Under the pieces are notes generated by a model, which saw only the letters and a program-made list of their open reading frames with translations, was not told the origin of the DNA and ran no database searches. Made by a program: the position numbers and the translations under genes. Below, piece after piece: positions 325 to 24,224 of a stretch of DNA of 24,224 bases (its first letter is position 1; every line of letters begins with the position of its first letter). Source of the DNA: a virus. The stretch lies in IMG/VR virus record IMGVR_UViG_3300036398_005366, positions 1 to 24,224 of that record. One strand, 5' to 3'.

Positions 325-996
325 TTATCGGATTTTGACGTTGAGACCAGCTTGGAAGTCGGTCACTTTCTGGAGCATGACATCCTGGTCCAGGCAGGTA
401 AAGGCGAAAGGATACTCAGGGTCGCCGGCACACTTGTTCTTCCGCTTGCGCACGTCCCTCCAGTGCGCGTCGAACGTCGAGTCGGAGATCGGCTCCGCTA
501 CCACGCCGTCGTCCACCTTCGGATAAACCTCCCGCAGATCCTCGAACATGAACTCAGGACGCGGCGGACGCTCCCATCGTTGCCACAGGCGCAGGGCCAG
601 CTCCGCGGCTTTCTGCACTTCCATGGGCGCGTAGATGAAATACTCGCGATGCGTCGGCTCGATCTGGAACTTGCTGTGATAGACCAGCAGCGTCACGATG
701 TATGGCACCTGCGCACGCACAAGCGACTCGCGAATCGGATCTCCGGACTGTCCGCTATCGTCGTAATTGCCGACGCGAGCCATCCCCTGGATGTAGTAGG
801 TCCGCATCTGCTTGGCGGACAGCACCGCGCCGTGCTTCGGATTATCCACGGGCCGCCCGAGATGATCCCGCAACTGCACATTTTTGAAAATCTGCGCGTG
901 TCTGGCTGTGTTTTCCATGCCCCAGTAATGCGTCGCCGCCCGGATTCCGTCAACCCGTTTCTCTCTAAGCAAATTACGTTTCGCGCCGGGTATCAT
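325..996 (-). CDS. Hypothetical protein, 223 aa
   Basis: I do not recognise this protein. The frame is open up to ATG 1101, but residues encoded by 997-1101 use codons rare elsewhere here (ATA, AGA, GTA, TCA) and overlap a cluster of GTATCAT sites, so I prefer ATG 996; ATG 918 is also possible. The protein has a mixed central part (SKFQIEPTHREYFIYAPMEV), a Trp/Arg/Pro-rich stretch (LRLWQRWERPPRPEF) and a charged C-terminal third. No signal peptide or membrane segment is visible. It lies downstream of a 190-residue unknown across a 172 bp spacer, and 13 bp before the SAP-like gene. No Shine-Dalgarno sequence precedes either start. Confidence 0.72.
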   Translation of the reverse strand: MIPGAKRNLLREKRVDGIRAATHYWGMENTARHAQIFKNVQLRDHLGRPVDNPKHGAVLSAKQMRTYYIQGMARVGNYDDSGQSGDPIRESLVRAQVPYIVTLLVYHSKFQIEPTHREYFIYAPMEVQKAAELALRLWQRWERPPRPEFMFEDLREVYPKVDDGVVAEPISDSTFDAHWRDVRKRKNKCAGDPEYPFAFTCLDQDVMLQKVTDFQAGLNVKIR

Positions 997-1155
997 GGGT
1001 CGGTGCAGTGTATTTGACAATCCGTGATACCCTGGTCTCGTGCGCGGCGCCCCCGAACGCGTTGAGCTACCGCGTCTTACAGATTTCGACTCGAGTATCA
1101 TTTTGCCTCTTTTGAACTTCCCGATCGAGTATCATTTAGCCGTTTGCATGATACC
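989..1155. promoter_or_regulatory. Cluster of five GTATCAT-type sites
   Basis: GTATCAT occurs on the plus strand at 990-996, 1095-1101 and 1129-1135, and on the minus strand at 1148-1154. GTATCAC occurs on the minus strand at 1024-1030. The sites at 1129 and 1148 form an inverted pair with a 12 bp spacer. Those at 1095 and 1129 lie in a 17 bp direct repeat (1091-1107 and 1125-1141) with one mismatch. The preferred ATG at 996 lies inside the first site. This fits an operator or activator array for the downstream gene, but no regulator is identified and the role is inferred. Confidence 0.4.
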
Positions 1156-5496: not shown

Positions 5497-7368
5497 TTAT
5501 TGCTGCTGTCCGGCAAGCATTTGCCCGACTTGGGCGCGACCTTGCGAACCAGCCTGCGCGCGCATCTTTTCCATGGCGTCTTTCGCCGCGGCGTAAAGCG
5601 TCGGATTGATTGCCTCGGCCCGCTGCATCTCCTTGCGGTGCGAATTCGGCTGCTGCGTGTGCATCTGGATCCACTGCTGGGCGATCTCCTGGGCGCGCTG
5701 CTGCACCATGGTCGGGTCAGCATTTGTATCGACGGCGTAATCCAACGGAGAAGCGGGGGCGCCGCCTGCGCCGGCCGCCGCACCAGCCCCGCCCTGAGCG
5801 GTCTGCTGCATGGACTGCTCGGCCGCTGCCATTGCGAGATCGGCCATGGAACCCTGCGTGCGTTCCTTCTCGTAATTCTTCGCAAGCTCTTCGGCTCCGC
5901 GCTGAATCTCCTGATCCTCCTCGATGGCCCGAATGTTCGCGGCCTCCGGGTCGGTGACTCCGATGTCCGGGTAGACATCCTTTCGGGGGATCTCGCGGTT
6001 TGCGGCGAGCTGCATGCGCAGCTGCATCCACTCGGCGTTGTATGCCACGACCGGACGCTTGAGTCGCACCTCCATCTCCTTCGATTCGAAGGCTCGCTGC
6101 ACCGTGCGCGCGATAAATTTGAGCAGCCCGTCGAGTTCTGCGTAGAGCCACTCATACTGCCGCTCGAACATGCGAATGGCATTCGGCAGCTGCTCCGGAT
6201 TCAGCGTGCCACGGAATAATTCACGCGGGAATCCAAGCCCGTCGAACAGCTGGTTGGTGTATGCCTCCACGACGTCATACAGCACCATGGCCTTGCCTCC
6301 GCCGTCGAAGGTCTGCATCTCGATCGGGAACGGCACCGCGTGGATCGATGTGGCGTCCCTCCGGCGCGCGGCGATCATGTTCTGCATCTCCGAGCGCCAG
6401 CGCGACATCAGTGTGGTGAGCACGGCGTCGCCGATGTTTCCACCGAAGTTCGGACTCAGCACTCTCGTCGGATGCAGGAATTCCTGCGCGACGGCGAAGT
6501 CCGCCTTCCGGTAAATCGCCAGTTGGTAGAGCGCATCGTAGTGCATCAGCACTTCCGGCACTGCCCATCCGGAATCGGAGACTCCGCACGGCGTCGGCGA
6601 TCGAAAATGATGCACCTCGCCCTTGCGGAATCGATAGTCCTTGTTCTTCGAGATCGCCTCCAGCAGACCGCGCGGCGTGTTGTTGATCTCGTGCAGCTTG
6701 TTGTGCTTGACCCTGGCCTCCATGTCCGGAGGAATCCGGTAGATGTATTCCGTCGTGTCCGCGTGGTGCGGCGAGTCCAGATCCACGTAGCGCGGGTCCA
6801 GGAAGATGATGGAGAAGCGGTCAGGCGCAGCAGACGGCTTGTCGCGGAATTCCAACCTCACAGTCGGCAGATCGGCCATCTTGCGCTTTTGTTTCGGCAG
6901 CTTCGCCGCCGCTGCCATGTCCGGCACCTCGTAAACCATATCGGACCAGTGATACTTCACCAAATGTTCCGGAAATATGTCCAACGAAATGGCGCGCTGG
7001 AGTCCGTCGCGGTTGTCGACGAGCCAGCGATCGAACGGCTCGACGCAGCGGACGAACGCCTGGCCGTAGATGGCCCACTCTGTGCCGGCCTTCTGCATCT
7101 TCGAGAAGATGCGCAGCGTTTCCGTCAGCAGCCGCTCCAGCTTCTTCTGTTCGTCCTTGTCGCCCGCGTCGACGAATTCGATCCCGGTGATGAAATAGGA
7201 AATTACCCGGTTGCATACTGCTCCGTACAGACGGTTGGTCCGGTAGAGATAGAGACACAAGTCGAACGTGGACTTGATGTCGCTCGGGAATGAATCTGTC
7301 GACGGAAGCAGGAATGGATCTCCAAACTTTTTGGAACCGTTCAGAAAGGAGTTGGAGATGACGGCCAT
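5497..7368 (-). CDS. Phage portal protein, 623 aa
   Basis: This is most likely the portal, the dodecameric ring at the capsid vertex through which DNA is packaged and ejected. An N-terminal helical part (TNRLYGAVCNRVISYFI, about 44-60) is followed by the usual clip/stem-like pattern with EWAIYGQAFVRCVEPFD (about 97-113). A typical portal signature lies near 379-387 (GFPRELFRG), followed by long helices (390-425). The last 130 residues are rich in Gln, Ala and Gly and likely form the barrel or a disordered tail. The length is normal for a portal. ATG 7368 is 13 bp after the upstream stop, without a Shine-Dalgarno sequence. No terminase or major capsid gene is in the window. The assignment is from motif recognition, not a database hit. 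Confidence 0.87.
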   Translation of the reverse strand: MAVISNSFLNGSKKFGDPFLLPSTDSFPSDIKSTFDLCLYLYRTNRLYGAVCNRVISYFITGIEFVDAGDKDEQKKLERLLTETLRIFSKMQKAGTEWAIYGQAFVRCVEPFDRWLVDNRDGLQRAISLDIFPEHLVKYHWSDMVYEVPDMAAAAKLPKQKRKMADLPTVRLEFRDKPSAAPDRFSIIFLDPRYVDLDSPHHADTTEYIYRIPPDMEARVKHNKLHEINNTPRGLLEAISKNKDYRFRKGEVHHFRSPTPCGVSDSGWAVPEVLMHYDALYQLAIYRKADFAVAQEFLHPTRVLSPNFGGNIGDAVLTTLMSRWRSEMQNMIAARRRDATSIHAVPFPIEMQTFDGGGKAMVLYDVVEAYTNQLFDGLGFPRELFRGTLNPEQLPNAIRMFERQYEWLYAELDGLLKFIARTVQRAFESKEMEVRLKRPVVAYNAEWMQLRMQLAANREIPRKDVYPDIGVTDPEAANIRAIEEDQEIQRGAEELAKNYEKERTQGSMADLAMAAAEQSMQQTAQGGAGAAAGAGGAPASPLDYAVDTNADPTMVQQRAQEIAQQWIQMHTQQPNSHRKEMQRAEAINPTLYAAAKDAMEKMRAQAGSQGRAQVGQMLAGQQQ

Positions 7369-9021: not shown

Positions 9022-10833
9022 TTAGTCGGGTAGTTTGAGGGTCTTCCCCCGCAGGTTGCTGGGGCTGACCCACTCCTTCTTACCCGTGCGCCGGTTGACG
9101 AGCAACTGATAAATTCGACCGTCAGATCCGACACGTGCGCCGTGCGCCAGTCGGACGTCGATGCCGGCTTTTTCAGACTCCGGCCCCGCGATCGGATCCA
9201 CGAAGCCGAACTGCGTGGCGCTGACTGCCGTCATGTCGTCCGTGATGGCATTCGGGTCGCCGATGCCGCCGGGTCCCATCTTGGTGATGCGACGCTTCTG
9301 CTCGAGGATGTGCATCGGGTTGATCTCCTCCAGCGCTGTGACCAGCGGATTGGACTTGAGGTAGCCCATCGTGTATCCGCCGAACGCGTCCGGGCCCACA
9401 GGGTCCAGGGTGCGCATGCGGCTCAGCCGTCCCATCATCGCGCGCAGGGCATGTCCGTGGTCGAGCTTGATGCGCTCGGCCATCAGGCGGTCCACCGTGT
9501 GGACGCGGTCGTTCGGCAGGCTGTCGCGGTCGTCCGTCTCAGCCAGGCCGCGGTTCACGGCCAGCAGCTTCTCGGTGGCAGCCAGCAGGCCGTCGATGCC
9601 CACCGGTGCATACTTCTCGTGCTCGTCGTCGTCCGCCAGGTAGCGGTGATGCGCCATGGGCGACTTCATCGGCGCTTTCGGCATCGGCTTCGGGACACCG
9701 ATCGGGACGTAGGTCGATGCCGCCTTCGCAAACGCAGTCGGGCCATAATCCTGCGGATTGGCAAGCTGGTCCTCGTAAATGGGCACCTCACCCATCAATT
9801 GCCGAAGGGCGCGCGCCGTCACATTGCCGTGCAGCGCGTTATCCCGATGGGTCAGGTTGAACCGATCCGCCACCCACTTCCGACGATCGTCAGGCGTCTT
9901 GTCGAAATTCCTGATGAAGCCCTGCCGGGTGTTGAACGTCATGACGTCATCATCCACCATCTCCACCCGATGCAGCGGCTCATCCTCCTCTGGCTCGATC
10001 TCGGGATGTTCCAGCCCCTGCGCGACGAGGTAGGCGCGCAATTTCTCCAGTGCGACATCAGCGTGCTTGTCCTCCACCGATGCGTGCACATCCCCGGTGT
10101 GGGCGTCATTCACGGCCAGGCCCGAAGCTTGCAGCTCCTTGAGGATCGCGTGCCAGTTCTTCCGCAGCCCCACGCCCTGCAGCTTGTCGCCGGACAGCCG
10201 GAAAGTCTTCGCCATCTTTTCCATCGGAAACTCCAGATACTTCGGATCAATCTTCCCCGTCGGATGGATGATCTGGACGTGCGGCACGTCGCCGGCATAC
10301 CGGCCGTGCCCGGGCTCGAAGTGCTTCCACAGTTCCTTCGGATTCTTCGCGCGCTCGATGAGCTGCTTGATCTCATCGATCTTCAGGTCGTGATGCCGCG
10401 CGGCAAGGATCGGCTCCTTCTCTTCGTCCGACATGGCGTCCCACTCCTCGTCGCTCAGATGTCCCCACAGCGACTTCCCTGGGGCCAGCTCGACGCCGTG
10501 CAGGCGCGTGTCTGGCGCGTCCCGCAGCAGGGCTTCGAGATCGATCCGCAGCGGCACAGACTTCCGCTGGTTCATCGGGTGCGTCGCGTCGCCCTTGATG
10601 CGGTCCGTGTCGGGCTGGCCGAAGAATGCGGACGGGCCGGCGAACGACGCCTTCCACGGTTCCTCCTTCAGCTTCTTCTCCCGGAATGCCAGCCACTCGT
10701 CGGCCGCCTTGCCGGGGCGCGCGAGTTCCAGCAGGTGCCGGTTCTCCGGGCGCGCAAGGATGTCGCCGGACAGCAGCCCGTGCTCACGGACGGAGTCCAG
10801 CGTTTCTTCGGGGATGTAGGACAGGAGTTTCAT
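9022..10833 (-). CDS. RNA polymerase beta-like protein, fork-region piece with large N-terminal extension, 603 aa
   Basis: Residues about 412-590 follow the RpoB pattern. DDRDSLPNDRVHTVDRLMAE (434-453) matches the conserved DDIDHLGNRRVRSVGELL stretch. NPMHILEQKRRITKMGPGGI (505-524) matches the [20 protein letters not shown] fork/rifampicin-pocket segment. SATQFGFVDPIAGPESEKAG (538-557) matches THYGRVCPIETPEGPNIG. The protein then stops at 603, so the catalytic hybrid-binding part of beta is missing. Residues 1-410 are not recognisable RpoB. They start MKLLSYIPEETLDSVREHGL and include SVPLRIDLEALL; the pattern faintly recalls ADP-ribosyltransferase-like folds, but this is weak. FAKAAS lies at 368-373. 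ATG 10833 overlaps the upstream stop as ATGA. It is probably one subunit of a phage multisubunit RNA polymerase; whether it is packaged in the virion is unknown. Confidence 0.78.
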   Translation of the reverse strand: MKLLSYIPEETLDSVREHGLLSGDILARPENRHLLELARPGKAADEWLAFREKKLKEEPWKASFAGPSAFFGQPDTDRIKGDATHPMNQRKSVPLRIDLEALLRDAPDTRLHGVELAPGKSLWGHLSDEEWDAMSDEEKEPILAARHHDLKIDEIKQLIERAKNPKELWKHFEPGHGRYAGDVPHVQIIHPTGKIDPKYLEFPMEKMAKTFRLSGDKLQGVGLRKNWHAILKELQASGLAVNDAHTGDVHASVEDKHADVALEKLRAYLVAQGLEHPEIEPEEDEPLHRVEMVDDDVMTFNTRQGFIRNFDKTPDDRRKWVADRFNLTHRDNALHGNVTARALRQLMGEVPIYEDQLANPQDYGPTAFAKAASTYVPIGVPKPMPKAPMKSPMAHHRYLADDDEHEKYAPVGIDGLLAATEKLLAVNRGLAETDDRDSLPNDRVHTVDRLMAERIKLDHGHALRAMMGRLSRMRTLDPVGPDAFGGYTMGYLKSNPLVTALEEINPMHILEQKRRITKMGPGGIGDPNAITDDMTAVSATQFGFVDPIAGPESEKAGIDVRLAHGARVGSDGRIYQLLVNRRTGKKEWVSPSNLRGKTLKLPD

Positions 10834-11147
10834 AACGTCGCGCAGGTTGGTTGCGGCATGCTGCGTATCCAGACTGCCTCCACCCTGTGCTCGATCCCGC
10901 TCATGCCCAAAGGAGGGCGATGAGTAGTGACGTATTCAAGCGTTCCGCGCATGAGATCAGTCACCGCCTTGATTTGAGCATCGCACGTGTCTGACAATTC
11001 TTGCGTCAGAGTCCCGTCGCCGGGCAGAGAGATTACCATGAACCACATGTCTTCGTCCGCCGCCTTGCGTATCTCGAAAGGCAGAGCGAAAACTCCCAGC
11101 GCCTCATAGCCTCCATGTTGTGCTTGTGTCATTTGTGATTGTGTCAT
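10830..11147 (-). CDS. Hypothetical protein, 105 aa
   Basis: Not recognised. ATG 11147 lies one base after the stop of the 75-residue gene and 11 bases after GGAGGA at 11159-11164. The frame opens further upstream, but that would overlap the preceding gene. The first ten residues are a doubled MTQSQ/MTQAQ caused by a 15 bp tandem repeat, so ATG 11132 could also serve. The middle has alternating strands (EDMWFMVISLPGDGTL) and a helix. It overlaps the next polymerase-like gene by ATGA. The context suggests an accessory protein co-made with the RNA polymerase pieces; no function can be read from the sequence. Confidence 0.7.
   Translation of the reverse strand: MTQSQMTQAQHGGYEALGVFALPFEIRKAADEDMWFMVISLPGDGTLTQELSDTCDAQIKAVTDLMRGTLEYVTTHRPPLGMSGIEHRVEAVWIRSMPQPTCATL
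11118..11147 (-). repeat. 15 bp tandem repeat doubling a start codon
   Basis: The first 30 bases of the 105-residue gene are two copies of ATGACACAAKCACAA with one mismatch, giving two in-frame ATG codons at 11147 and 11132. Confidence 0.8.
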
Positions 11148-11148
11148 T

Positions 11149-11376
11149 TTATTGTAGATCCTCCGGTTTGCTGTATCCCCCAAGTGAGCACTCAGACACG
11201 CGCTCCGTGCCAGGTATCTGCACTCGGTAATGACGCACCTGGAATCTTACATCATCCCGAGGTTGCCTAAGCCCGCACGTGAGCAAATTGATCACATCTT
11301 CTTCCTGATCCCTGGTAGGCGGGGCAGCAGACTCCGTCGTAATTTCCACCTCGAATTTGTGCGTGGTTGTCGTCAC
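11149..11376 (-). CDS. Hypothetical protein, 75 aa, between direct repeats
   Basis: Not recognised. It starts with GTG 11376, overlapping the upstream stop as GTGA, six bases after GGAGGA (11383-11388). The start is Thr-rich and strand-like (MTTTTHKFEVEITTES), with a charged middle and a second strand region (VRFQVRHYRVQIPG). Its last residues, GYSKPEDLQ, nearly copy the end of the upstream protein, GYIKPEDLS. This is because a 20 bp direct repeat flanks the gene. The layout looks like a gene inserted, or produced by local duplication, with its junctions preserving the ribosome binding site for the next gene. Confidence 0.7.
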   Translation of the reverse strand: MTTTTHKFEVEITTESAAPPTRDQEEDVINLLTCGLRQPRDDVRFQVRHYRVQIPGTERVSECSLGGYSKPEDLQ

Positions 11377-11399
11377 GACAGATCCTCCGGTTTGATGTA
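11156..11399. repeat. 20 bp direct repeats flanking the 75-aa gene, each with a Shine-Dalgarno sequence
   Basis: Bases 11156-11175 and 11380-11399 are identical except for one position. On the minus strand each copy encodes the KPEDL end of a protein and contains GGAGGA. The copy at 11383-11388 serves GTG 11376 (six-base spacing), and the copy at 11159-11164 serves ATG 11147 (eleven-base spacing). Spacing between copies is 224 bp. Confidence 0.85.
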
Positions 11400-12860
11400 G
11401 CCCTCCAGCGCCAGCGTCATCAGCTCCCCAGGTCCAGGGGTGCCGACCGCGTCAGCGCCGCGACCGCGCGCCAGCTTAGCCAGGCGTTCGCGCTCGGAGT
11501 CGTCGAAGTCGTGCCGCTGCATGTAGTGGCGGACATACTCCTTGCGCCGGTAGCCTTCCATCCCCTCCTTGAAGTCTTCCCGCTGCTTAGCGGGCAGCAG
11601 CTTCAGCGGGTCGATGCCCCAGTTGACCAGGGCGAACGCGCGGCGTGGTGTCGGCTTGGCCTCGAACTGCGCGCCGGTCCGAGCCTTGAAACTTTTCCAC
11701 CTGGCGATCTGCTTCTCGTCTGTCTCGCCGCGGCGACCGGTGTGGTAGTTCTCATACCACTGCAGCCAGCCCTGCTTGTCGGTGTCGTCCAGCCAGTGCT
11801 CCGGCCACGCGCGCATGGACGCAAGGCGCGGACCTTTGCCGCCGTAGATCGCGTTGTAGGACTCCTTGAGTTCGTCCGGCGTGAAGTCCGGGGAGAACGC
11901 TGCGCGCTTGGTCAGCGGCACGTCGAACGATTCCCACTGTCCCCAGATCTGTTCGGGCGTGAAGTCAGGATCGAACGGGACGGCTGCCGCCTTGGTCATG
12001 CGGTCGGCTGCGTCGATCGCGGTCCCCGCCATCCTCCAGCTTGCCGCCTTCTCGTGGCTGTAGAGGTTCGGCAGGTTCTGCTTGAGAATCGACTCCGCCA
12101 CCTGGGCGCGGTCCAGCGCCGCCCGGATGTCCTTCACGCGGTCCTCTGGCGCACGCGCGGGGTCGCGCTCCCACTTTGGGATCACCTTGTTGTACACGCG
12201 GTCCAGTGTATGCCTCGAATACTTCGCCCGGTTGGCTTCGAGAATCTCCGGCCCCCACCGACGCGCGAGCTCCTCGTCCGTCACCCCGAGGTCCTTGAAC
12301 ACCGAGTAGGCGTGCAGGTCCGACGATCCCACCTTGAGACGATACTGCGCCGTGCGCGGGTCGAACGACACCCGCAGGGCCGAGCCGGTGCCGGGGCGCA
12401 CGTTCAGATGCGTCTCGAGCTCGCCATTGTCCCGGCGTCGCGTGTAGGCCCCAGGCAGCAGGCGCGACTGCATGGCTGGGGCATACTCGGATCCGTTCTC
12501 GATGAACGTCCCGCGCTCCGTCAGGTAAGGCACTCGGGCCAGCGTCACATTCTTGCGCTCGTCGAGCACCTCGTTGGTCACGTCGTCCACGAGCCGCATC
12601 GTTCCGCGCAGCCGGCGCACGAGCGACTTGTCGTCCAGCAGCGCCTCGCGTTGCTCGGCTTTGGTGAACCTCGCCGGACCGACATGCTTCATGTCTTTCA
12701 GCTCCAGCCGGACTCCGCCGTAGGCGTAGCCGTTGACGTAGCGCTGCATGGACTGCATCACAGAGGTATCGATCGCCTCCCGCGTGGCGTCGGAATCTTC
12801 CGGGTCGCGCAGCGTGACGCCTTCTGGCGGCTCAGGGATGTCGGAGGATGGATTCGGCAC
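11373..12860 (-). CDS. RNA polymerase beta-like protein, N-terminal protrusion piece with inserted domain, 495 aa
   Basis: Residues about 60-205 follow the N-terminal part of bacterial RpoB. The RpoB pattern 'IPLMTERGTFIINGTERVIV' is mirrored by VPYLTERGTFIENGSEY (110-126). It is followed by SRLLPGAY (like QLHRSPGVFF), then LRVSFDPRTAQYRLKV (162-177, like the FEFDPKDNLYVRIDRR segment) and FKDLGVTDEEL (188-198, like LRALGYTTEEIL). After about 260 there is non-RpoB sequence. HEKAAS is at 269-274, a doubled TKxAA...PDFTP element at 289-328, and a Trp-rich block (GWLQWYENYHTGRRGETDEK, 364-383, with QIARW and WGIDP) that I recall as a small module of unknown function in other proteins. It starts with GTG 12860. 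The rest of beta is split into the gene at 9022-10833 and at least one piece not in this window. Confidence 0.76.
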   Translation of the reverse strand: MPNPSSDIPEPPEGVTLRDPEDSDATREAIDTSVMQSMQRYVNGYAYGGVRLELKDMKHVGPARFTKAEQREALLDDKSLVRRLRGTMRLVDDVTNEVLDERKNVTLARVPYLTERGTFIENGSEYAPAMQSRLLPGAYTRRRDNGELETHLNVRPGTGSALRVSFDPRTAQYRLKVGSSDLHAYSVFKDLGVTDEELARRWGPEILEANRAKYSRHTLDRVYNKVIPKWERDPARAPEDRVKDIRAALDRAQVAESILKQNLPNLYSHEKAASWRMAGTAIDAADRMTKAAAVPFDPDFTPEQIWGQWESFDVPLTKRAAFSPDFTPDELKESYNAIYGGKGPRLASMRAWPEHWLDDTDKQGWLQWYENYHTGRRGETDEKQIARWKSFKARTGAQFEAKPTPRRAFALVNWGIDPLKLLPAKQREDFKEGMEGYRRKEYVRHYMQRHDFDDSERERLAKLARGRGADAVGTPGPGELMTLALEGYIKPEDLS

Positions 12861-12904: not shown

Positions 12905-15553
12905 TTATCGGTTCAGGTGTTTCTCCAGGAAGTCGTGCTTCGCATCGTCCGCCTCGTTCGTGTAGTCCAGCACCAGCTCCAGGTCCGCATTCGCGCGCGC
13001 AGACTTCTCGTGCAGTCGGTCAAACGACTCCTTCGGAATTTCGTCAGGACGACGCAAGATCTGCAGCGGCTTGCGCGTGGTGGACCGCACCCATTCCAGG
13101 ATGTTCTTGTCGTGCATCTTTCGCATGCGCGACATCACCGTGACCGGCTCGGCGCCGCACTGCTCCGCCAGCGCATCCACGTCGAACTGCCACCAGCCGT
13201 CCTTCTCCACGCCGACGTCGAAGATCGCGTCGCGCGTTTCCGATTCCTTCTTCGTCATGGTCGGAATGACTTCCTCAAACCGGATGCGATGCTGCCGCGC
13301 GGCGTCCGCGTCGTGCGCGAAGATTCGCTCACCCAGGCAGAACGACATGATGGCCTGGGTCGCGAACGGATCGATCGAAGCCCGCTTGCATATCTCATCG
13401 CGCGACGCCGTGATCGCCCCGTTGGCGCCCTCACGCATCTGACTTGCCGCCTTGAAGAACGCCTTGATGTCCTCCGGCGTTGGATTGCCGCAGCGGATGA
13501 AGTGCTTCCGCGTGCGAATGCCCTCAGGAGTCGGGATGATCGTGCAGTAGGAGTCGAGACCGTCTCTGCCTGCGCGACCCGCTTCTTGCGCCAAAGCCAC
13601 CAGAGTGCCCGGGATGTCGAAGTGCACCACGTGTCTGATATTGCTTTTGTCCACGCCCATGCCGAACGCGTTCGTGGCCACGATGACTGCCTCGGGGTCC
13701 GCCATGAACTTGTCCTGGTTGAACCGACGATCCGGCTGCAGCATTCCGCCGTGGTAGAAGTAGACCGGGCGGTTGGTGTAGCGGCTGATGGCCGCCGCGT
13801 ATTCCTCCACCCTCTTACGCGTGGAAGCGTAGACGATGGTCGGCCCCTCGCAGTTCGCAGCCACCCAGGGTGCGGCCTCCGACATGCGGTCCAGGAACAG
13901 GGACGCCAGATGCAGATTCGTGCGGCGCGGGTAGTGGTAGATCAGCTTGGCCTTGAGGATGCCCAGACCGCTCCGCACCTCCGCCTCAGCCTCCTCGGAC
14001 AGCGTCGCAGAGAACGCCGCCACCACTTTCGGCTGCACCTTCTGGATGAACTCCCCGGCGAACTTGTAGCCGGGACGGAAGGTGTCCGCCCAGTCATGGA
14101 ACGTGTGACAGTTTCCTATCACGACAACTTTTCCGCTGCGTCGAACCACGATGCACCCGGTGGGTACAGTCACGCAGTAGACCATTCCGTCGTAGTCCGT
14201 CACGCGCTTCCTGAATTCCTGCGTGTCTACGGTTGGCTCGCCCAGGCGAATGAACAACCGGTGTACATCGCTGAATGCGTCCGACCTGTGATCCACCTGC
14301 AATGTTTTTCGGGCGCGCAGTCCAGCGCGTATGCAGACTTCCTGGAAGTAGTCTGTGTTGTCCTCCACCGTGCTGCTGTAGTAACCCAGCGAATCGCTGA
14401 CGTCGCTACCATCCCAGGCGATGCATTCGTCGACCAGCGCGCGACAGGCATCAGCCGACAGATCGTTGTAATCAAGCACCTCGCGCATGATCTTGGAAAG
14501 CCCGGGCACCCCCGTCACGATGAACCTTCGACGGCTACCATCTGATCGGTCTTTTACCTCGTTGAAGGCATAACCGCCGTCTTTCATGATCTGCAGGAAT
14601 CGCTTGATCTTTCGCTGCTTCACGAACGAAAACGCAGCAGACGATTTGCTGTGGGCGTTTCCGTCCGCCTGAAAAGCAGTCTGAAGACGCTCCCAAGGTG
14701 TCAATGCGGAGCGTCCAGTGCCGGCGCCGGCTGCGGCTCTCATACGCCACATGTAGCTGAACTTGGCGTCCGCGGCAGTTCGCTTTCGCCAGCTGCCGTC
14801 AGCCCTGTAAACCAGCAGATCGTGATTCGGAGTTACCGAGATGTCTATGCCGCTGGTCGATTCGATGTGGATCATCTCTCCTTTGTGCCGCCTACGTATG
14901 ACGCGCGACGGAACGACCAGCGTCATCTCGTGCGTGTCCGGATCCACCTGAGCCACCTGATCTGCATCGTCCAGTGCATCGAATCTCACGAATCCACGAC
15001 CCGTGAGAATCTCAACGTCAGGCGCAAAGCACTCGTCCATCGCCACAAAATCAGGCGGGAACTGCGACACCACGTTCGACCACTCCGGATTCGAGAAGCG
15101 CTCCGGGCTGACCAGCATGAACTGCAGCGTGCCCGACGCCCAGTCCCGCAGCACCGAGGCGTTGTGTCCGTCCGTCTCCTGGCTGGAGATGGACGCCGCA
15201 GCAAGCCCCTTGCGCTGCATGGACGTGGCCTGGTCACGCATGAGCGCGATCAGCGGGTAGATGACGATGGTGCGCCAGCCCATGCACAGCGTCGGCACAA
15301 CGAAGCATGCACTTTTCCCAGACCCGGTTGGCAGGATCGTGATCGTGTCCCGCTGCGCCATGATGGACTTCACCGATCGGTCCTGCCCCTCCCGGAGCGT
15401 GCTGAACCGCAGGCTGTTCAGGACCGCCGGCATCTTCTTCATTCCCTGCATCAGCGCCTGTATTTCGGCGGTGGTTGTTACGGCTTTCCGCGCTTCGATC
15501 GGAGGACTTTCAGTTTCGGATTCTTCGGGTTTCGGTTTGGTCAGAGTCGACAT
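12905..15553 (-). CDS. RecQ-like superfamily 2 DNA helicase interrupted by an intein, 882 aa precursor
   Basis: The order of helicase motifs is RecQ-like: FSTLREGQ (50-57), Walker A ILPTGSGKS (73-81), AFSATL (513-518), VATNAFGMGVDKSNIRHVVH (625-644) and QEAGRAGRDG (656-665). A C-terminal helical and winged-helix-like region (690-882) follows. The Walker B box is split: FVAMDE ends at 174 and CHTFHDWADTFRPGY starts at 482, so the spliced protein of 575 residues carries DECH in place of DEAH, followed by the RecQ-type W-x-x-x-FRPxY. The enzyme should unwind DNA during replication or recombination. ATG 15553 overlaps the upstream gene by 13 bp. LHEKSAR lies at 847-853. I see no RecQ-type zinc-binding cysteine set or HRDC domain. 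Confidence 0.95.
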   Translation of the reverse strand: MSTLTKPKPEESETESPPIEARKAVTTTAEIQALMQGMKKMPAVLNSLRFSTLREGQDRSVKSIMAQRDTITILPTGSGKSACFVVPTLCMGWRTIVIYPLIALMRDQATSMQRKGLAAASISSQETDGHNASVLRDWASGTLQFMLVSPERFSNPEWSNVVSQFPPDFVAMDECFAPDVEILTGRGFVRFDALDDADQVAQVDPDTHEMTLVVPSRVIRRRHKGEMIHIESTSGIDISVTPNHDLLVYRADGSWRKRTAADAKFSYMWRMRAAAGAGTGRSALTPWERLQTAFQADGNAHSKSSAAFSFVKQRKIKRFLQIMKDGGYAFNEVKDRSDGSRRRFIVTGVPGLSKIMREVLDYNDLSADACRALVDECIAWDGSDVSDSLGYYSSTVEDNTDYFQEVCIRAGLRARKTLQVDHRSDAFSDVHRLFIRLGEPTVDTQEFRKRVTDYDGMVYCVTVPTGCIVVRRSGKVVVIGNCHTFHDWADTFRPGYKFAGEFIQKVQPKVVAAFSATLSEEAEAEVRSGLGILKAKLIYHYPRRTNLHLASLFLDRMSEAAPWVAANCEGPTIVYASTRKRVEEYAAAISRYTNRPVYFYHGGMLQPDRRFNQDKFMADPEAVIVATNAFGMGVDKSNIRHVVHFDIPGTLVALAQEAGRAGRDGLDSYCTIIPTPEGIRTRKHFIRCGNPTPEDIKAFFKAASQMREGANGAITASRDEICKRASIDPFATQAIMSFCLGERIFAHDADAARQHRIRFEEVIPTMTKKESETRDAIFDVGVEKDGWWQFDVDALAEQCGAEPVTVMSRMRKMHDKNILEWVRSTTRKPLQILRRPDEIPKESFDRLHEKSARANADLELVLDYTNEADDAKHDFLEKHLNR
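14111..15031 (-). other. Intein with LAGLIDADG-like insert, 307 aa, in the helicase DEAH box
   Basis: The intein runs from Cys175 to Asn481 of the precursor. Block A is CFAPDVEILTGRGFVRF, block B is ISVTPNHDLLV with the T-x-x-H pair, and the end is YDGMVYCVTVPTG...VVVIGN followed by extein Cys482. The usual penultimate His is Gly here. The middle (about 345-425) has the pattern of a LAGLIDADG homing endonuclease (ACRALVDECIAWDGS, then GYYSSTVEDNTDYFQEVC). The acidic residues of one helix motif look kept, but I cannot tell whether the endonuclease is active. Removal exactly rebuilds the helicase Walker B motif. Boundaries are inferred from intein block rules. Confidence 0.93.
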
Positions 15554-20924: not shown

Positions 20925-21077
20925 TCAGTTAAGCGTGCCGTCGCCGCGGATGTCGCCGAACTGGAGGGCATACACGCCCACGAAATATGGGTCCGTGGTG
21001 CCGTAGCCGCTCTGGCACGCCTCGGCGCCTGCCTCGCGCAGCATGATGTTGCCGAGCTCGATCATTGTTTTCGTCAT
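20925..21077 (-). CDS. Very small protein, 50 aa
   Basis: Not recognised. ATG 21077 overlaps the stop of the HNH gene as ATGA. The frame extends further upstream but would lie over the HNH gene. The protein starts MTKTMIELGNIMLREAGAEA and ends in a Gly/Tyr/Asp-rich stretch (SGYGTTDPYFVGVYALQFGD). No membrane segment is evident. Its reality rests on the ATGA junction and on filling the gap before the promoter. Confidence 0.5.
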   Translation of the reverse strand: MTKTMIELGNIMLREAGAEACQSGYGTTDPYFVGVYALQFGDIRGDGTLN

Positions 21078-21790
21078 TGGTGTTTTGGCTGGGGTAGTCC
21101 GGCGAGCGCCCGCTGCAAACGCAGAACGTAGGCGCGTAGAAACTCGAAGAATTCGTCCTCCGTCCTGGTCCACTTCAACGTGTTGCAGTCGTAGCAGGCG
21201 ATGCGGAAGTTCGCCGTGTGGTGTGCGCCTCCTCGATCGCACGGGGTAGCGTGATCGACTGAAGTTGCTTCCGGGCGTAGTGGATCAGTGCAGTAGTAGC
21301 ACTCACCTCGTTGTCGCTCGAATATCTGCAGCAGGTCTTGCGGTTTGCAGACGTAGTCCAAATCCTTCAGCGCCACTTTGCTCACCTTCACGCCGCGTCG
21401 TTTGGCCAACGCTTGTCGGCCGGCGGTGTTACACGTGTATGCTTTCTTGCGCCACCATGCCTCGTCAAAACCAGAAGACCGGCGAGAGTCCGAGTTGTAG
21501 ACGCGCGTCAGACAAGTGTCGCATATCTTGTTCAACTTTTCCTGGCATCGTCGATTCTTTCTCGGTGAGAACTCGCTGAGAAGCTTATGTCGAAAACATT
21601 TCACACAGACACGCCGCCCAGACGCGTCGTCCGGCGCGGCTAGGAGTGCCAGCTTTTTATCTCGCCGCTTTTTCGCGATTTCCTCTTTGTTGTAGCTGCG
21701 GACGCACGCCAGACACCTCCCTTTGGATTTGCCACCGGAATAGTGTATCGGCGCTCCTGTGTCGCAGTGCGGGCATATAGGATCGTTCAT
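21074..21790 (-). CDS. HNH endonuclease with several zinc knuckles, 238 aa
   Basis: Counting from ATG 21790, the C-terminal HNH core has CYYC (164-167), the catalytic DH pair (179-180, VDHATPCDRGG), Asn194 and CYDC (199-202). Additional CxxC pairs are CPHC (6-9), CLAC (26-29), CVKC (62-65) and CDTC (90-93), giving likely two zinc ribbons for DNA contact before the nuclease. A TTG at 21799 overlapping the polymerase stop is an alternative start. It cleaves DNA; as a free-standing gene next to the DNA polymerase gene it is most likely a homing endonuclease that spreads itself into related phages, a common arrangement. A packaging or recombination role is less likely. Confidence 0.92.
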   Translation of the reverse strand: MNDPICPHCDTGAPIHYSGGKSKGRCLACVRSYNKEEIAKKRRDKKLALLAAPDDASGRRVCVKCFRHKLLSEFSPRKNRRCQEKLNKICDTCLTRVYNSDSRRSSGFDEAWWRKKAYTCNTAGRQALAKRRGVKVSKVALKDLDYVCKPQDLLQIFERQRGECYYCTDPLRPEATSVDHATPCDRGGAHHTANFRIACYDCNTLKWTRTEDEFFEFLRAYVLRLQRALAGLPQPKHQ

Positions 21791-21795
21791 GGCGA

Positions 21796-24224
21796 TCAAC
21801 TTACACCATACGCAGTCTTGACGTCAACAGGCTTCTGTAGGTGCCCCAAACCCGCGAGCATAAGCAGATTGGGGTGCTGCTCTAAAAACTTCAACTTGCT
21901 GGAAGGTGCGTGAAACTCTCGATCATCCAACGTCCGCTGATCCTCATCGTTCGGTCGTGTAGACCACCGGTAGTTGAACTCGTTCTCGATAGAGTAGCGC
22001 AGCGTTCTAGCTCCGCGCTCATCGTTGTAGTCCCAGGTGTTCAACTCAGACATGCAGAGCGTGTGTAACCGCGCGACGAGGAATCGCTCCTCTAGCGGAG
22101 CCAGCGTCACGACGGAGTCATATAAACAGATCATCGGACGCGCTTTCATTCCCAGTCTACGATACGCCATCAGCAACCAGTTACACGCTCGCGCTGAGGT
22201 GCTTGCAACTGATTCCTGCATGGCGTAATTCTTCATCTCGCGACCCAGGGCGCTGTCGATCGAGTTGCGCGTGCGCCAGCTCACGCCGCTACCGGCCGAG
22301 TGCGTCAGGCAGTGACGAATGCGTCCGGACGCTGCGCGATACATACCACGCTCCTTCGGCGTCCTGGCCATCTCCTCCAGGAACTCTGTCGCGCGCGGTT
22401 GACGTTCGCGTATAGCTTCCAGCCCACGCTCGCCGGTACCCTCCTCCGGCTTGACGCCGGTGACAGCTTCGATCTGTCGCTCTAGCGAATTTTCAGAGGC
22501 GCCATAGGCGCTAGAAAAGTTGAGTACCTTCCCGGCCGCTCTATCCTTCTTGGCCTTCATCATCTCGCGATACTTACCGTATGTGCTCTCCACCAGCGAC
22601 CAGTGAATGTCGTAGCGAGTGTGTACCACGGCGCCGGACTCGTCCCGCAGCAAATCGCTCTCCTCGACCTTACCAAGACACACACCATCCGCCCATACGT
22701 GCATCAGGAATTTCGGGTTTTGCGCATTCTCCGGGATGCCAGATGTCTTCGCGTCAGTGAACGCCACCCTCACCACGGTCGCGCCATACATCTTACTCTT
22801 CAGTCTCGCCCACTCGGGGTCCGGATCAAACAGAATGCGCATCAGATCCTTGTCCCCGGAGATCATCGCCAGCGCGACCATCTCAGCCGTGACGTAATCG
22901 CTCTCGACCAGCACGTAGCCTTCCGGAGCCTGCACGCACGACCGTATCGACGGCAAGTCGTCTGCGTCCCTGTCGACCCATCGCAGCAGATTCTCCGGCA
23001 GGTCGCCTTCCTCGTGGGCTTCCTTCACGCAGCGCGCCACAGACGCCGAGATGCGCCTGTTCACGAAGCTCGGCCAGTTGAGCACGTTTGGGAAGAACGT
23101 CCGCGGCCGGCCCGTCTCCGTCGATGACGTCTGCGGGTGGATGCGGCCGTCGCTCTGCAGCCACAGGTGCAAGCCGTTCTCCTCGATGACTTCCTCGCCG
23201 GTGTCCTCGTCGATCTCGATCGTCGGCTCCTTCAGGAACGCCTTCGACAAGTTGCCGACGGCGTTCAGGTTCAGAAGCTCGTCGATGGCGGGCAGCTGCT
23301 CCGAGAGAATCGCGAGCGTCTGCTTGTCCACCGCGGGCTTGTAAAGCGACTGGCGGTCCTCAGGCAGCTCCAGCACTTTCTCCCACGCCATGGACGGCAG
23401 GCCCTTGGCCTTCTGGTTGGTGGACTTGATCGGGACGAGCTCCTCGAAGTCGAACAACCAGCGCACCATCTGGTCAGGAGACCGGATGTTGAACGCCGGG
23501 GAATCCTCCCAATGGGCGATCCACTTGTTCCACTTCGGCACCTCCGCGAGCTTGCCGGCGTCGAGCAGCATCTGCTTCACCTGCGTGCGCAGCAGCTCGC
23601 CGTCATGCGCCACGATCGCCGGCAGGCACAGCTTAGTCGCCGCGACACCGAACGCCTTGATGAGCTTCGACCTGAGCTTCGACTCCGCCTCCGCAGCCAC
23701 CCGTCGCTTGAACGTCTTGTCCAGACGCAGCTTCGCGAAGGTGAACAGGTGACGCAGGTCGTCCATCATCGAGATGTCCATCGGCAGCCCGGTCATGCAG
23801 AACTCGACGAACACGTCCGATGAGAACGGACCGAACATGTCGCGGTAGTAGGCCCACAGCCGCTGCGCCTCCAGCTGCCGCTTGATCAGCGGGTAGGCAC
23901 GATACGGCGTGATGACGTCAGCCGCAGCGTAGGGATGCAGGATGGCGCTCGGGATGAAGCCGTAGCCGCCCTTGCAGAGATCCTTATTCTCGCGCTTCCA
24001 CATGACGAGCTCTTGGTCGTATCGACCCAGGCTCGTGTATTGCATTGCGATGCGCTCCAACCCGAGGTCCGAGCTTTCGTCGGAAACCTGCTGCGCAAAC
24101 TCCGTGTCCATTTCCAGCTTCCCGTAGGTCTCCATCCCGAGCCAGTGCTGCATCCACGGGGCGTCCGCCGGGAAGTGGTGGCCGATGTAGCGGACGCCGA
24201 GGCGTGCGAAGGTGCTCGCGATCG
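21796..24224 (-). CDS. Family A DNA polymerase with 3'-5' exonuclease, 5' end outside window
   Basis: The frame is open to the right edge. Translation there reads RYIGHHFPADAPWM, like exonuclease motif II, and continues with HPYAAADV, like exonuclease motif III (Y-x-x-x-D). ATG 24153 is therefore internal. Counting from it, TGRP..FFPNVLNWP (347-361) matches the conserved GR..S..PNLQNIP region. Motif A is SDYVTAE (418-424), motif B is R538-x3-K542-x7-YG with Phe546 in the nucleotide-selecting position, and motif C is LYDS (677-680) instead of VHDE. About 110 residues lie between motifs A and B. This is the replicative polymerase of the phage. The gene is followed after five bases by the HNH gene. 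Confidence 0.96.
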   Translation of the reverse strand, partial: IASTFARLGVRYIGHHFPADAPWMQHWLGMETYGKLEMDTEFAQQVSDESSDLGLERIAMQYTSLGRYDQELVMWKRENKDLCKGGYGFIPSAILHPYAAADVITPYRAYPLIKRQLEAQRLWAYYRDMFGPFSSDVFVEFCMTGLPMDISMMDDLRHLFTFAKLRLDKTFKRRVAAEAESKLRSKLIKAFGVAATKLCLPAIVAHDGELLRTQVKQMLLDAGKLAEVPKWNKWIAHWEDSPAFNIRSPDQMVRWLFDFEELVPIKSTNQKAKGLPSMAWEKVLELPEDRQSLYKPAVDKQTLAILSEQLPAIDELLNLNAVGNLSKAFLKEPTIEIDEDTGEEVIEENGLHLWLQSDGRIHPQTSSTETGRPRTFFPNVLNWPSFVNRRISASVARCVKEAHEEGDLPENLLRWVDRDADDLPSIRSCVQAPEGYVLVESDYVTAEMVALAMISGDKDLMRILFDPDPEWARLKSKMYGATVVRVAFTDAKTSGIPENAQNPKFLMHVWADGVCLGKVEESDLLRDESGAVVHTRYDIHWSLVESTYGKYREMMKAKKDRAAGKVLNFSSAYGASENSLERQIEAVTGVKPEEGTGERGLEAIRERQPRATEFLEEMARTPKERGMYRAASGRIRHCLTHSAGSGVSWRTRNSIDSALGREMKNYAMQESVASTSARACNWLLMAYRRLGMKARPMICLYDSVVTLAPLEERFLVARLHTLCMSELNTWDYNDERGARTLRYSIENEFNYRWSTRPNDEDQRTLDDREFHAPSSKLKFLEQHPNLLMLAGLGHLQKPVDVKTAYGVS

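Follow-up and report, generated by a model that had tools for sequence, protein, structure and literature searches.

Judged by sequence comparison, the closest cultured relatives of the virus treated here include Salmonella phage Arash, whose multisubunit RNA polymerase (RNAP) is encoded by gp206 + gp216 (OQ632216) and, like that of Vibrio D69/D148/D181, has the same beta and beta' domains as the enzyme described below, with the beta' break after NADFDGD. In Arash and D69, beta and the N-terminal part of beta' (beta'N) are joined in one polypeptide of 1,525-1,527 aa, and the C-terminal part (beta'C) is a second; the D69 chain is annotated as hypothetical and that of Arash (gp206, L047:19194-23771) as beta only, its last 400 residues being beta'N with the metal-binding DYDGD motif. 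The subject of this study is a stretch of 24,224 nucleotides from the IMG/VR virus record IMGVR_UViG_3300036398_005366 (hereafter the window), in which two genes, beta1 and beta2 (Table 1), are consecutive fragments of beta (RpoB), and whose parent genome has four genes for that first chain of Arash.

Other phage enzymes offer further comparisons. Those of phiKZ and AR9 resemble the window enzyme in having split beta and beta' subunits, no alpha, and a beta' break after the double-psi barrel; the phiKZ non-virion RNAP (nvRNAP) functions without alpha or omega despite its split subunits (excerpt of PMC8287921), and the split AR9 enzyme assembles without alpha (excerpt of PMC9209446). A preliminary description of the window supposed that the beta of this group is in two pieces, which does not hold for the virion enzyme, given as three polypeptides, as here, in section 3.4.3 of PMC7824862. 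This was the only account of a three-piece beta found in the open-licence literature, in the portions of text available, and because of it the three-piece count is not new. The multisubunit enzyme of the mReC phages (Weinheimer and Aylward 2020) is alignable with cellular beta and beta', as here, and the excerpt of that survey (PMC7481178) treats beta and beta' as a pair of subunits, RefSeq phages with fragmented beta' being set aside. Finally, the virion polymerase of Thermus phage P23-45 is also homologous to the cellular enzymes, but it is fused to the tape measure and is not split (excerpt of PMC10770324).

Taken together, the evidence makes it quite probable that the beta genes in the window are the first two of three for the cell-like RNAP of a tailed phage of ~184 kb, an enzyme that would have a five-chain core, a fission origin, and a place in the virion. 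The pieces themselves are a matter of observation, as are their homology, order, conservation, and selection. Both open reading frames (ORFs) lie on the minus strand at the positions given in the preliminary description and contain the motifs by which it had recognised them, and its assignment of beta1 to the protrusion/lobe part of RpoB and of beta2 to the fork part stands: beta1 (model positions 72-232, E 5e-9), beta2 (317-483, E 1.1e-13), and a third gene, beta3, found outside the window (542-1049, E 1.9e-47), cover successive stretches of the NCBIfam RpoB model PRK00405, with scores that are all far under the whole-protein cut-off, as those of fragments should be. The check by Rpb2 profile hidden Markov models succeeded in part, given that beta2 matches Rpb2_3 and beta1 has no Pfam match. 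The first 275 residues of beta1 and its relatives, taken as a profile, match solved RpoB chains (best 8.9e-10). The AlphaFold model of beta1 has a mean predicted local distance difference test (pLDDT) score of 68.8 and is good over ~residues 20-260 and 390-495, and the 50 Foldseek matches listed for it include RNAP beta entries from transcription complexes (best E 6e-11, with a low template modelling score of ~0.2) and the B1-B2 fragment of the Mycobacterium tuberculosis beta. Hundreds of residues are added to each part, as had been described (~220 at the C terminus of beta1 and ~400 at the N terminus of beta2), two small ORFs lie between the two genes, and beta2 terminates ahead of the hybrid-binding domain when aligned with its relatives and Salmonella RpoB.

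The window corresponds, at 100% identity, to G001:106084-130307, G001 being a 184,016-base contig from IMG/VR that contains it entirely. The ends of G001 share an exact 127-bp overlap, and those of the relative G005 (200,158 bases) an overlap of 181 bp, 99.4% identical; because of these overlaps both look complete, and G001 would be circular. The profile search found no Rpb2_6 within the 24,224 bases of the window, which is too short to decide the question of a third beta piece, and it is in G001 that the predicted piece was found (637 aa, Rpb2_6 E 2.2e-46), starting 4.0 kb outside the window and ~13 kb downstream of beta2, behind the portal module. The gene order in G001 is beta1 (117448-118935), the two small ORFs, beta2 (119475-121286), the portal gene (122940-124811), which thus sits between the second and third pieces, and beta3 (134297-136210). 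The last of these carries the catalytic double-psi barrel (PF00562 9.2e-45) and the C-terminal part, and the catalytic lysines corresponding to E. coli K1065 and K1073 are present in 12/12 aligned betas, two of them bacterial. Rpb2_6 gives a single match in each of 7/9 records searched and none in the other two, both of which are partial.

Both of the beta' parts that the preliminary description proposed to look for were also recovered from the rest of the genome. The NADFDGD part is beta'1 (G001:178250-181384, 1,044 aa), in which the motif is followed by a ~640-aa insertion with a LAGLIDADG_3 match (an intein), the G005 protein having NADFDGD without the insertion; Rpb1_2 was detected in 3/9 records searched. 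The bridge helix/trigger loop region is beta'2 (G001:22709-24562; rpoC TIGR02386 4.1e-46), where Rpb1_5 reaches 6e-10 in G005 and 8e-4 in G001 (detected in 2/7 records searched) and Rpb1_4, at 8.2e-5 and 1.7e-4, stays below the cut-off. The genome thus has a beta barrel with its lysines, a beta' NADFDGD barrel, and a bridge/trigger part, as a multisubunit two-barrel RNAP does, and the catalytic core is predicted to be five chains, i.e., beta1, beta2, beta3, beta'1, and beta'2. The alpha subunit (PF01193) was found in 0/4 records, with control matches in 13/14 genomes, and a T7-type polymerase likewise in 0/4, a search made uninformative by controls that also gave no match. A sigma-like gene (G001:64605-65369) matches Sigma70_r3 (4.4e-7, above the cut-off) and Arash gp10; Sigma70_r2 was not found in G001. 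At positions 516, 526, and 531 of the rifampicin pocket, E, Q, and T stand instead of D, H, and S, and rifampicin resistance would therefore be expected.

The breaks lie between domains of beta, which is why a single non-covalent beta/beta' core would be expected to form from the five chains, as in the enzymes of phiKZ and AR9, and this core would be packaged in the virion, would enter with the DNA, and, together with the phage sigma-like protein, may transcribe the early genes after injection. On the features tested, namely the Rpb2_6 copy number, the sigma-like gene, and the beta3 profile, the enzyme is nevertheless not of the phiKZ type to which the preliminary description likened it. The phiKZ group has two enzymes (virion and non-virion) without sigma, whereas the window phage has one enzyme and a sigma-like gene; in contrast to phiKZ/AR9, its beta has a break at the lobe end and none between the barrel and the C-terminal part; and it is far closer in sequence to bacterial RpoB, the beta3 profile reaching 2.6e-83 with bacterial RpoB vs 2.8e-30 with chain 7s00_C, which, from its 665 aa, we take to be AR9 gp089. 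As for the mReC phages, their capsid (PF07068) was found in 0/6 records, though no control genome came over the cut-off, and the G001 homologue of the Arash major capsid protein has no Pfam match at E up to 1. A further mReC trait is a phage beta/beta' clade apart from the cells; our trees, with a single bacterial outgroup, separate the phage rows from that outgroup only.

The comparison with Arash is the one that bears on packaging. In the excerpt of PMC10585845, Gp206 is the most-detected virion protein of this phage, with 3,516 spectra and 128 unique peptides, and 1,210 spectra are given for Gp216, 877 for the portal Gp204, and 467 for the sigma Gp10. Of the 180 ORFs that a simple caller gave for G001 (beta1 and beta'1 being masked there by antisense ORFs), 85 with a G005 homologue were made into profiles, and ten matched Arash, including the portal (4.3e-31), major capsid protein (8.2e-29), terminase (6.9e-24), sigma gp10 (5.1e-13), gp222 (2.2e-33), gp236 (5.1e-27), and the RNAP chains. 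Two strong matches and one weak one among the ten are to structural proteins other than portal, capsid, and terminase. The beta3 protein is 30% identical to its Arash counterpart over 97% (E 1e-80), and beta'2 ~28-29% identical; with portal, capsid, terminase, and sigma-like genes in common, the window phage is a member of the Arash-type family. The packaged polymerase raised as a possibility in the preliminary description is thus supported by homology to Gp206 and Gp216 and, because virion presence has been shown for Arash only, it is by homology that we infer packaging in the window phage.

The enzyme could instead be made after infection for middle/late transcription only, like the phiKZ nvRNAP, given that phiKZ-group nvRNAPs are likewise split and alpha-less (section 5 of PMC7598289; excerpt of PMC8287921) and that the beta2/beta3 break is close to the start of the AR9 nvRNAP beta-C. 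This is rather unlikely, however, in view of the dominance of the homologues in the Arash virion proteome (excerpt of PMC10585845), the single Rpb2_6 gene per matching record, by which a second multisubunit enzyme is not evident, and the position of the polymerase genes, which flank the portal.

The number of chains varies among the relatives of the packaged, five-chain enzyme proposed here. An IMG/VR scan with the beta3 alignment gave 229 relatives, the best 80 of which were typed with our own profiles together with Arash and D69 (82 records, with several near-duplicates). Beta and beta'N are fused in 34/82, a beta'C ORF being found in 27 of these 34, and all five domains are in a single ORF in 21/82, mostly of 2,044-2,092 aa when insertion-free and apparently complete in L092, L104, L110, L121, L124, and others. 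A further ten have beta alone (a separate beta'N was found in 9/10), nine have beta3 alone, and eight are cut by the contig end or odd. In 9/9 of the beta3-alone records, beta1, beta2, and beta3 are separate ORFs, and in one of them, G011, beta'1 is still directly behind beta3. In the relatives, the same domains are spread over three ORFs, over two, or over a single one of ~2,060 aa. Among the odd records, L089 (6435-12847) has a separate beta1 with an unrelated 257-aa gene behind it and beta2-beta3-beta'N still fused, an independent beta1/beta2 break, and in L090 (8531-12997) the beta-beta' ORF has a stop inside the beta3 domain (frames of 680 and 808 aa), which is either a real break or a sequence error. 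Two 'Acinetobacter phage MD-2021a' contigs (CAKLQH020000005, CAKLQF020000005) were rejected as bacterial DNA with the ribosomal-protein operon rplJ-rplL-rpoB-rpoC, and several unannotated 'phage' contigs of Listeria, Staphylococcus, and Salmonella that match rpoB seem likewise to be bacterial.

The tree of the typed records has 72 different rows out of 83. In the beta3 trees, the five-chain rows form one clade, with support of 100 by the approximate likelihood ratio test (SH-aLRT) for nine rows and of 100/100 for eight, and this clade is nested among the fused beta-beta'N forms (supports 99/97, 100/99, and 94/87 in the eight-row tree). The concatenated tree of the five domains (48 rows, two of them five-chain, and 1,935 columns) places the five-chain pair inside the fused class with supports of 100/100, 100/100, 100/98, and 100/99, and the approximately unbiased (AU) test rejects its placement outside the fused forms (p 5.1e-9). 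Because of this nesting and this rejection, fission of a fused ancestor is the most likely origin of the five-chain form; the ancestor would have had beta and beta'N as one polypeptide, which then split to give five chains.

Several points weigh against the joint reading. Assemblers often work with a k-mer length of 127, the size of the G001 end overlap, which leaves circularity to be inferred, and the AlphaFold model of beta2 is poor (mean pLDDT 39, from a 15-row alignment), for which reason it was not taken to the fold search. All five genes are seen in just 2/9 of the beta3-alone records (G001 and G005) and four in G007 and G011, and the others are partial contigs, for which searches for beta' either gave nothing or were not made. 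The RNAP chains on which the virion argument is built are just ~28-30% identical to those of Arash, whose authors name carry-over besides early transcription as the reason for a virion RNAP (excerpt of PMC10585845). The trees were made under LG+G4 without a mixture and with one bacterial outgroup, the first beta3 tree was known before the topology tests, and with beta3 alone, a position of the five-chain clade outside all of the fused forms survives the AU test (p 0.0675).

This last value leaves room for an ancestral multi-piece enzyme, in which the separate chains are old and the one-, two-, and three-chain forms came about by fusion. Section 3.4.3 of PMC7824862 argues for split phage polymerases as relics of such an enzyme in the phiKZ group, and section 5 of PMC7598289 derives them from independent splits. 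Against the concatenated tree and its AU result, the single five-chain clade among 82 mostly fused records, and the single chain of the cellular beta, such an origin is very unlikely.

The fission proposed here would have left two breaks in beta, one where the lobe ends, between ~416 and 419, and a second between ~620 and 637 (alignment with Salmonella RpoB, 1,342 aa; E. coli numbering); compared with Arash, nothing is doubled and nothing is missing at the second. Given that the match of the AR9 nvRNAP beta-C (g089) begins at ~beta3 residue 24-28, the second break is near that of the AR9 nvRNAP. E. coli RpoB artificially split in its dispensable regions by Severinov and co-workers, a laboratory construct, reportedly assembles into functional enzyme. 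The natural breaks found here are outside those regions (I, 226-350; II, 938-1040; excerpt of PMC2939025).

The first break is also where domains have been added. The WY..GRR domain of beta1 is kept in 7/7 close relatives examined and is related to stand-alone proteins of Vibrio pVa-21 (E 4e-5), Cobetia Carin-5 (6e-3), and Flavobacterium immuto (7e-3). It was not detected on the beta1 of G010 or G011, and the beta'1 ORF of the latter (L068:13626-16214, 863 aa) has a WY..GRR-like domain at its start, a NUDIX match (4.1e-7), and then beta'N. By eye, the intermediate stretch of that ORF is lysozyme-like and the C-terminal end of G011 beta1 is a putative 2H phosphoesterase. The beta2 extension is shared by five nearly identical contigs that form one group and is missing in G005; as an IMG/VR query, its first 203 residues retrieved only five contigs of this group, and DUF7167 on the extension stays under the cut-off (0.001). 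An ADP-ribosyltransferase fold is a purely speculative candidate for the extension. Its residues 204-371 match an L088 ORF (2e-17) that itself matches InPase and Acylphosphatase (PF00708 9.1e-7), beta2 having no direct Pfam Acylphosphatase match, and in the fused relative L067 a single ORF has ~415 residues separating its beta1 domain from its beta2 domain. The lobe break would thus have become an attachment site, with accessory domains in several lineages.

The tested pieces are all under purifying selection. By the method of Nei and Gojobori (NG86), comparing G001 with G005, the rates of nonsynonymous and synonymous substitution (dN/dS) are.139/.945 for the N part of beta1,.202/.810 for its C part,.106/.949 for the beta2 core,.116/.931 for beta3, and.172/1.35 for beta'2, and, comparing G001 with G003,.012/.104 for the beta2 N extension, i.e., ratios of ~0.11-0.25 for each. 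A dead or decaying gene, whose remains would be the pieces of a phage relying on the host polymerase, might be read from the division of beta into three, from the unrelated genes that separate its pieces, and from a beta2 without AlphaFold support, but these ratios, the open frames kept in 9/9 records, and the retained catalytic lysines and NADFDGD make it highly improbable.

The junction between beta1 and beta2 differs between the two complete-looking genomes. In G005, the two genes overlap by ATGA. The last 15 bases of the window beta1, CAAACCGGAGGATCT, are in G005 the Shine-Dalgarno region ahead of beta2. The 75-aa ORF carries a copy of them, with the Shine-Dalgarno-like GGAGG, at its 3' end, as though the junction had been duplicated when this ORF was inserted; the ORF has no family at the cut-off and no convincing match in G005. 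The idea that the pieces are rejoined, either post-translationally by split inteins or by frameshifting, could draw on the commonness of inteins in these RNAP genes and on the ATGA overlap, yet it is scarcely credible, given that the window beta1 and beta2 have no intein family match, and thus no sign of trans-splicing, that the end of beta2 and the start of beta3 are clean and 13 kb apart, that beta1 is separated from beta2 by further genes in the window, and that the observed inteins are away from the break sites. Fission driven by inteins was rejected likewise, their sites (beta2 fork, beta3 GTGSYD, beta'1 NADFDGD, and others) not being at the breaks. Within one near-identical group, an intein at the beta2 fork is present in L003, L004/L011, and L002 vs absent in G001 and L001, and it is thus mobile there.

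Table 1. Features of the polymerase region of the window (window coordinates).
Feature	Coordinates	Strand	Basis
beta1, N-terminal RpoB fragment, 495 aa	11373..12860	-	PRK00405, profile, Foldseek
beta1 residues 1-275, protrusion + lobe	12036-12860	-	profile of relatives
beta1 residues 276-495, extra WY..GRR domain	11376-12035	-	related stand-alone small phage proteins
small ORF, 75 aa, between beta1 and beta2	11149..11376	-	ORF list
small ORF, 117 aa (105 aa if ATG at 11147)	10830..11183	-	ORF list
beta2, 603 aa	9022..10833	-	Rpb2_3, PRK00405
beta2 residues 1-400, extension missing in the G005 homologue (220 aa)	9634-10833	-	comparison with relatives
acylphosphatase-like stretch, beta2 ~residues 204-270	10024..10224	-	homology via L088 ORF
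beta2 residues 401-603, RpoB fork region	9025-9633	-	RpoB alignment
RNA_pol_Rpb2_3 match, beta2 residues 500-568	9130..9336	-	Pfam E 3.7e-6, above cut-off
portal protein, Arash gp204 homologue	5497..7368	-	phrog_2739 0.0035; Arash portal 4.3e-31

Elsewhere in the window, a ~130-base tandem duplication occupies the left end (1-311) and is present in G001 too. A RecQ-like helicase ORF (DEAD, Helicase_C; 12905-15553, minus strand) has its DECH box interrupted by an intein at 14109-15027 (Intein_splicing 6.3e-7, below the cut-off), a stretch missing from the G005 homologue, and a putative HNH-endonuclease-like ORF (21074-21799, minus strand; CxxC + HxxN pattern, by eye) adjoins a family A DNA polymerase gene. 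An Rfam search of the window gave no match. A contig scan of genomes found two relatives, one of them on a contig of an Oscillospiraceae metagenome-assembled genome (45% identity), by which the host is not fixed.

Set against the described systems, the window enzyme differs in its breakpoints, in a lineage much nearer to bacterial RpoB, in standing alone and not as one of two enzymes, in the presence of a sigma-like gene, and in the series of chain numbers to which it belongs, a series of which no description was found in open-licence papers. Tentatively, one homologous phage enzyme may exist as one, two, three, or five chains, the five-chain form being a recent fission product and not a pre-cellular relic, with chains that would be packaged and injected separately and assembled in the host, and with a lobe break that may serve each lineage as the docking platform of its own accessory domain (WY..GRR, acylphosphatase-like, or 2H-phosphoesterase-like) for host takeover or polymerase delivery. 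In this clade, sequences that can still be aligned range from a single ~2,060-aa chain to a set of five chains, which makes the direction of change testable; fission is the direction indicated here. The clade also makes natural beta breakpoints available for assembly studies, its family has a cultured member in whose virions the polymerase is the protein most detected, and the group illustrates the breaking apart of an ancient, essential enzyme.

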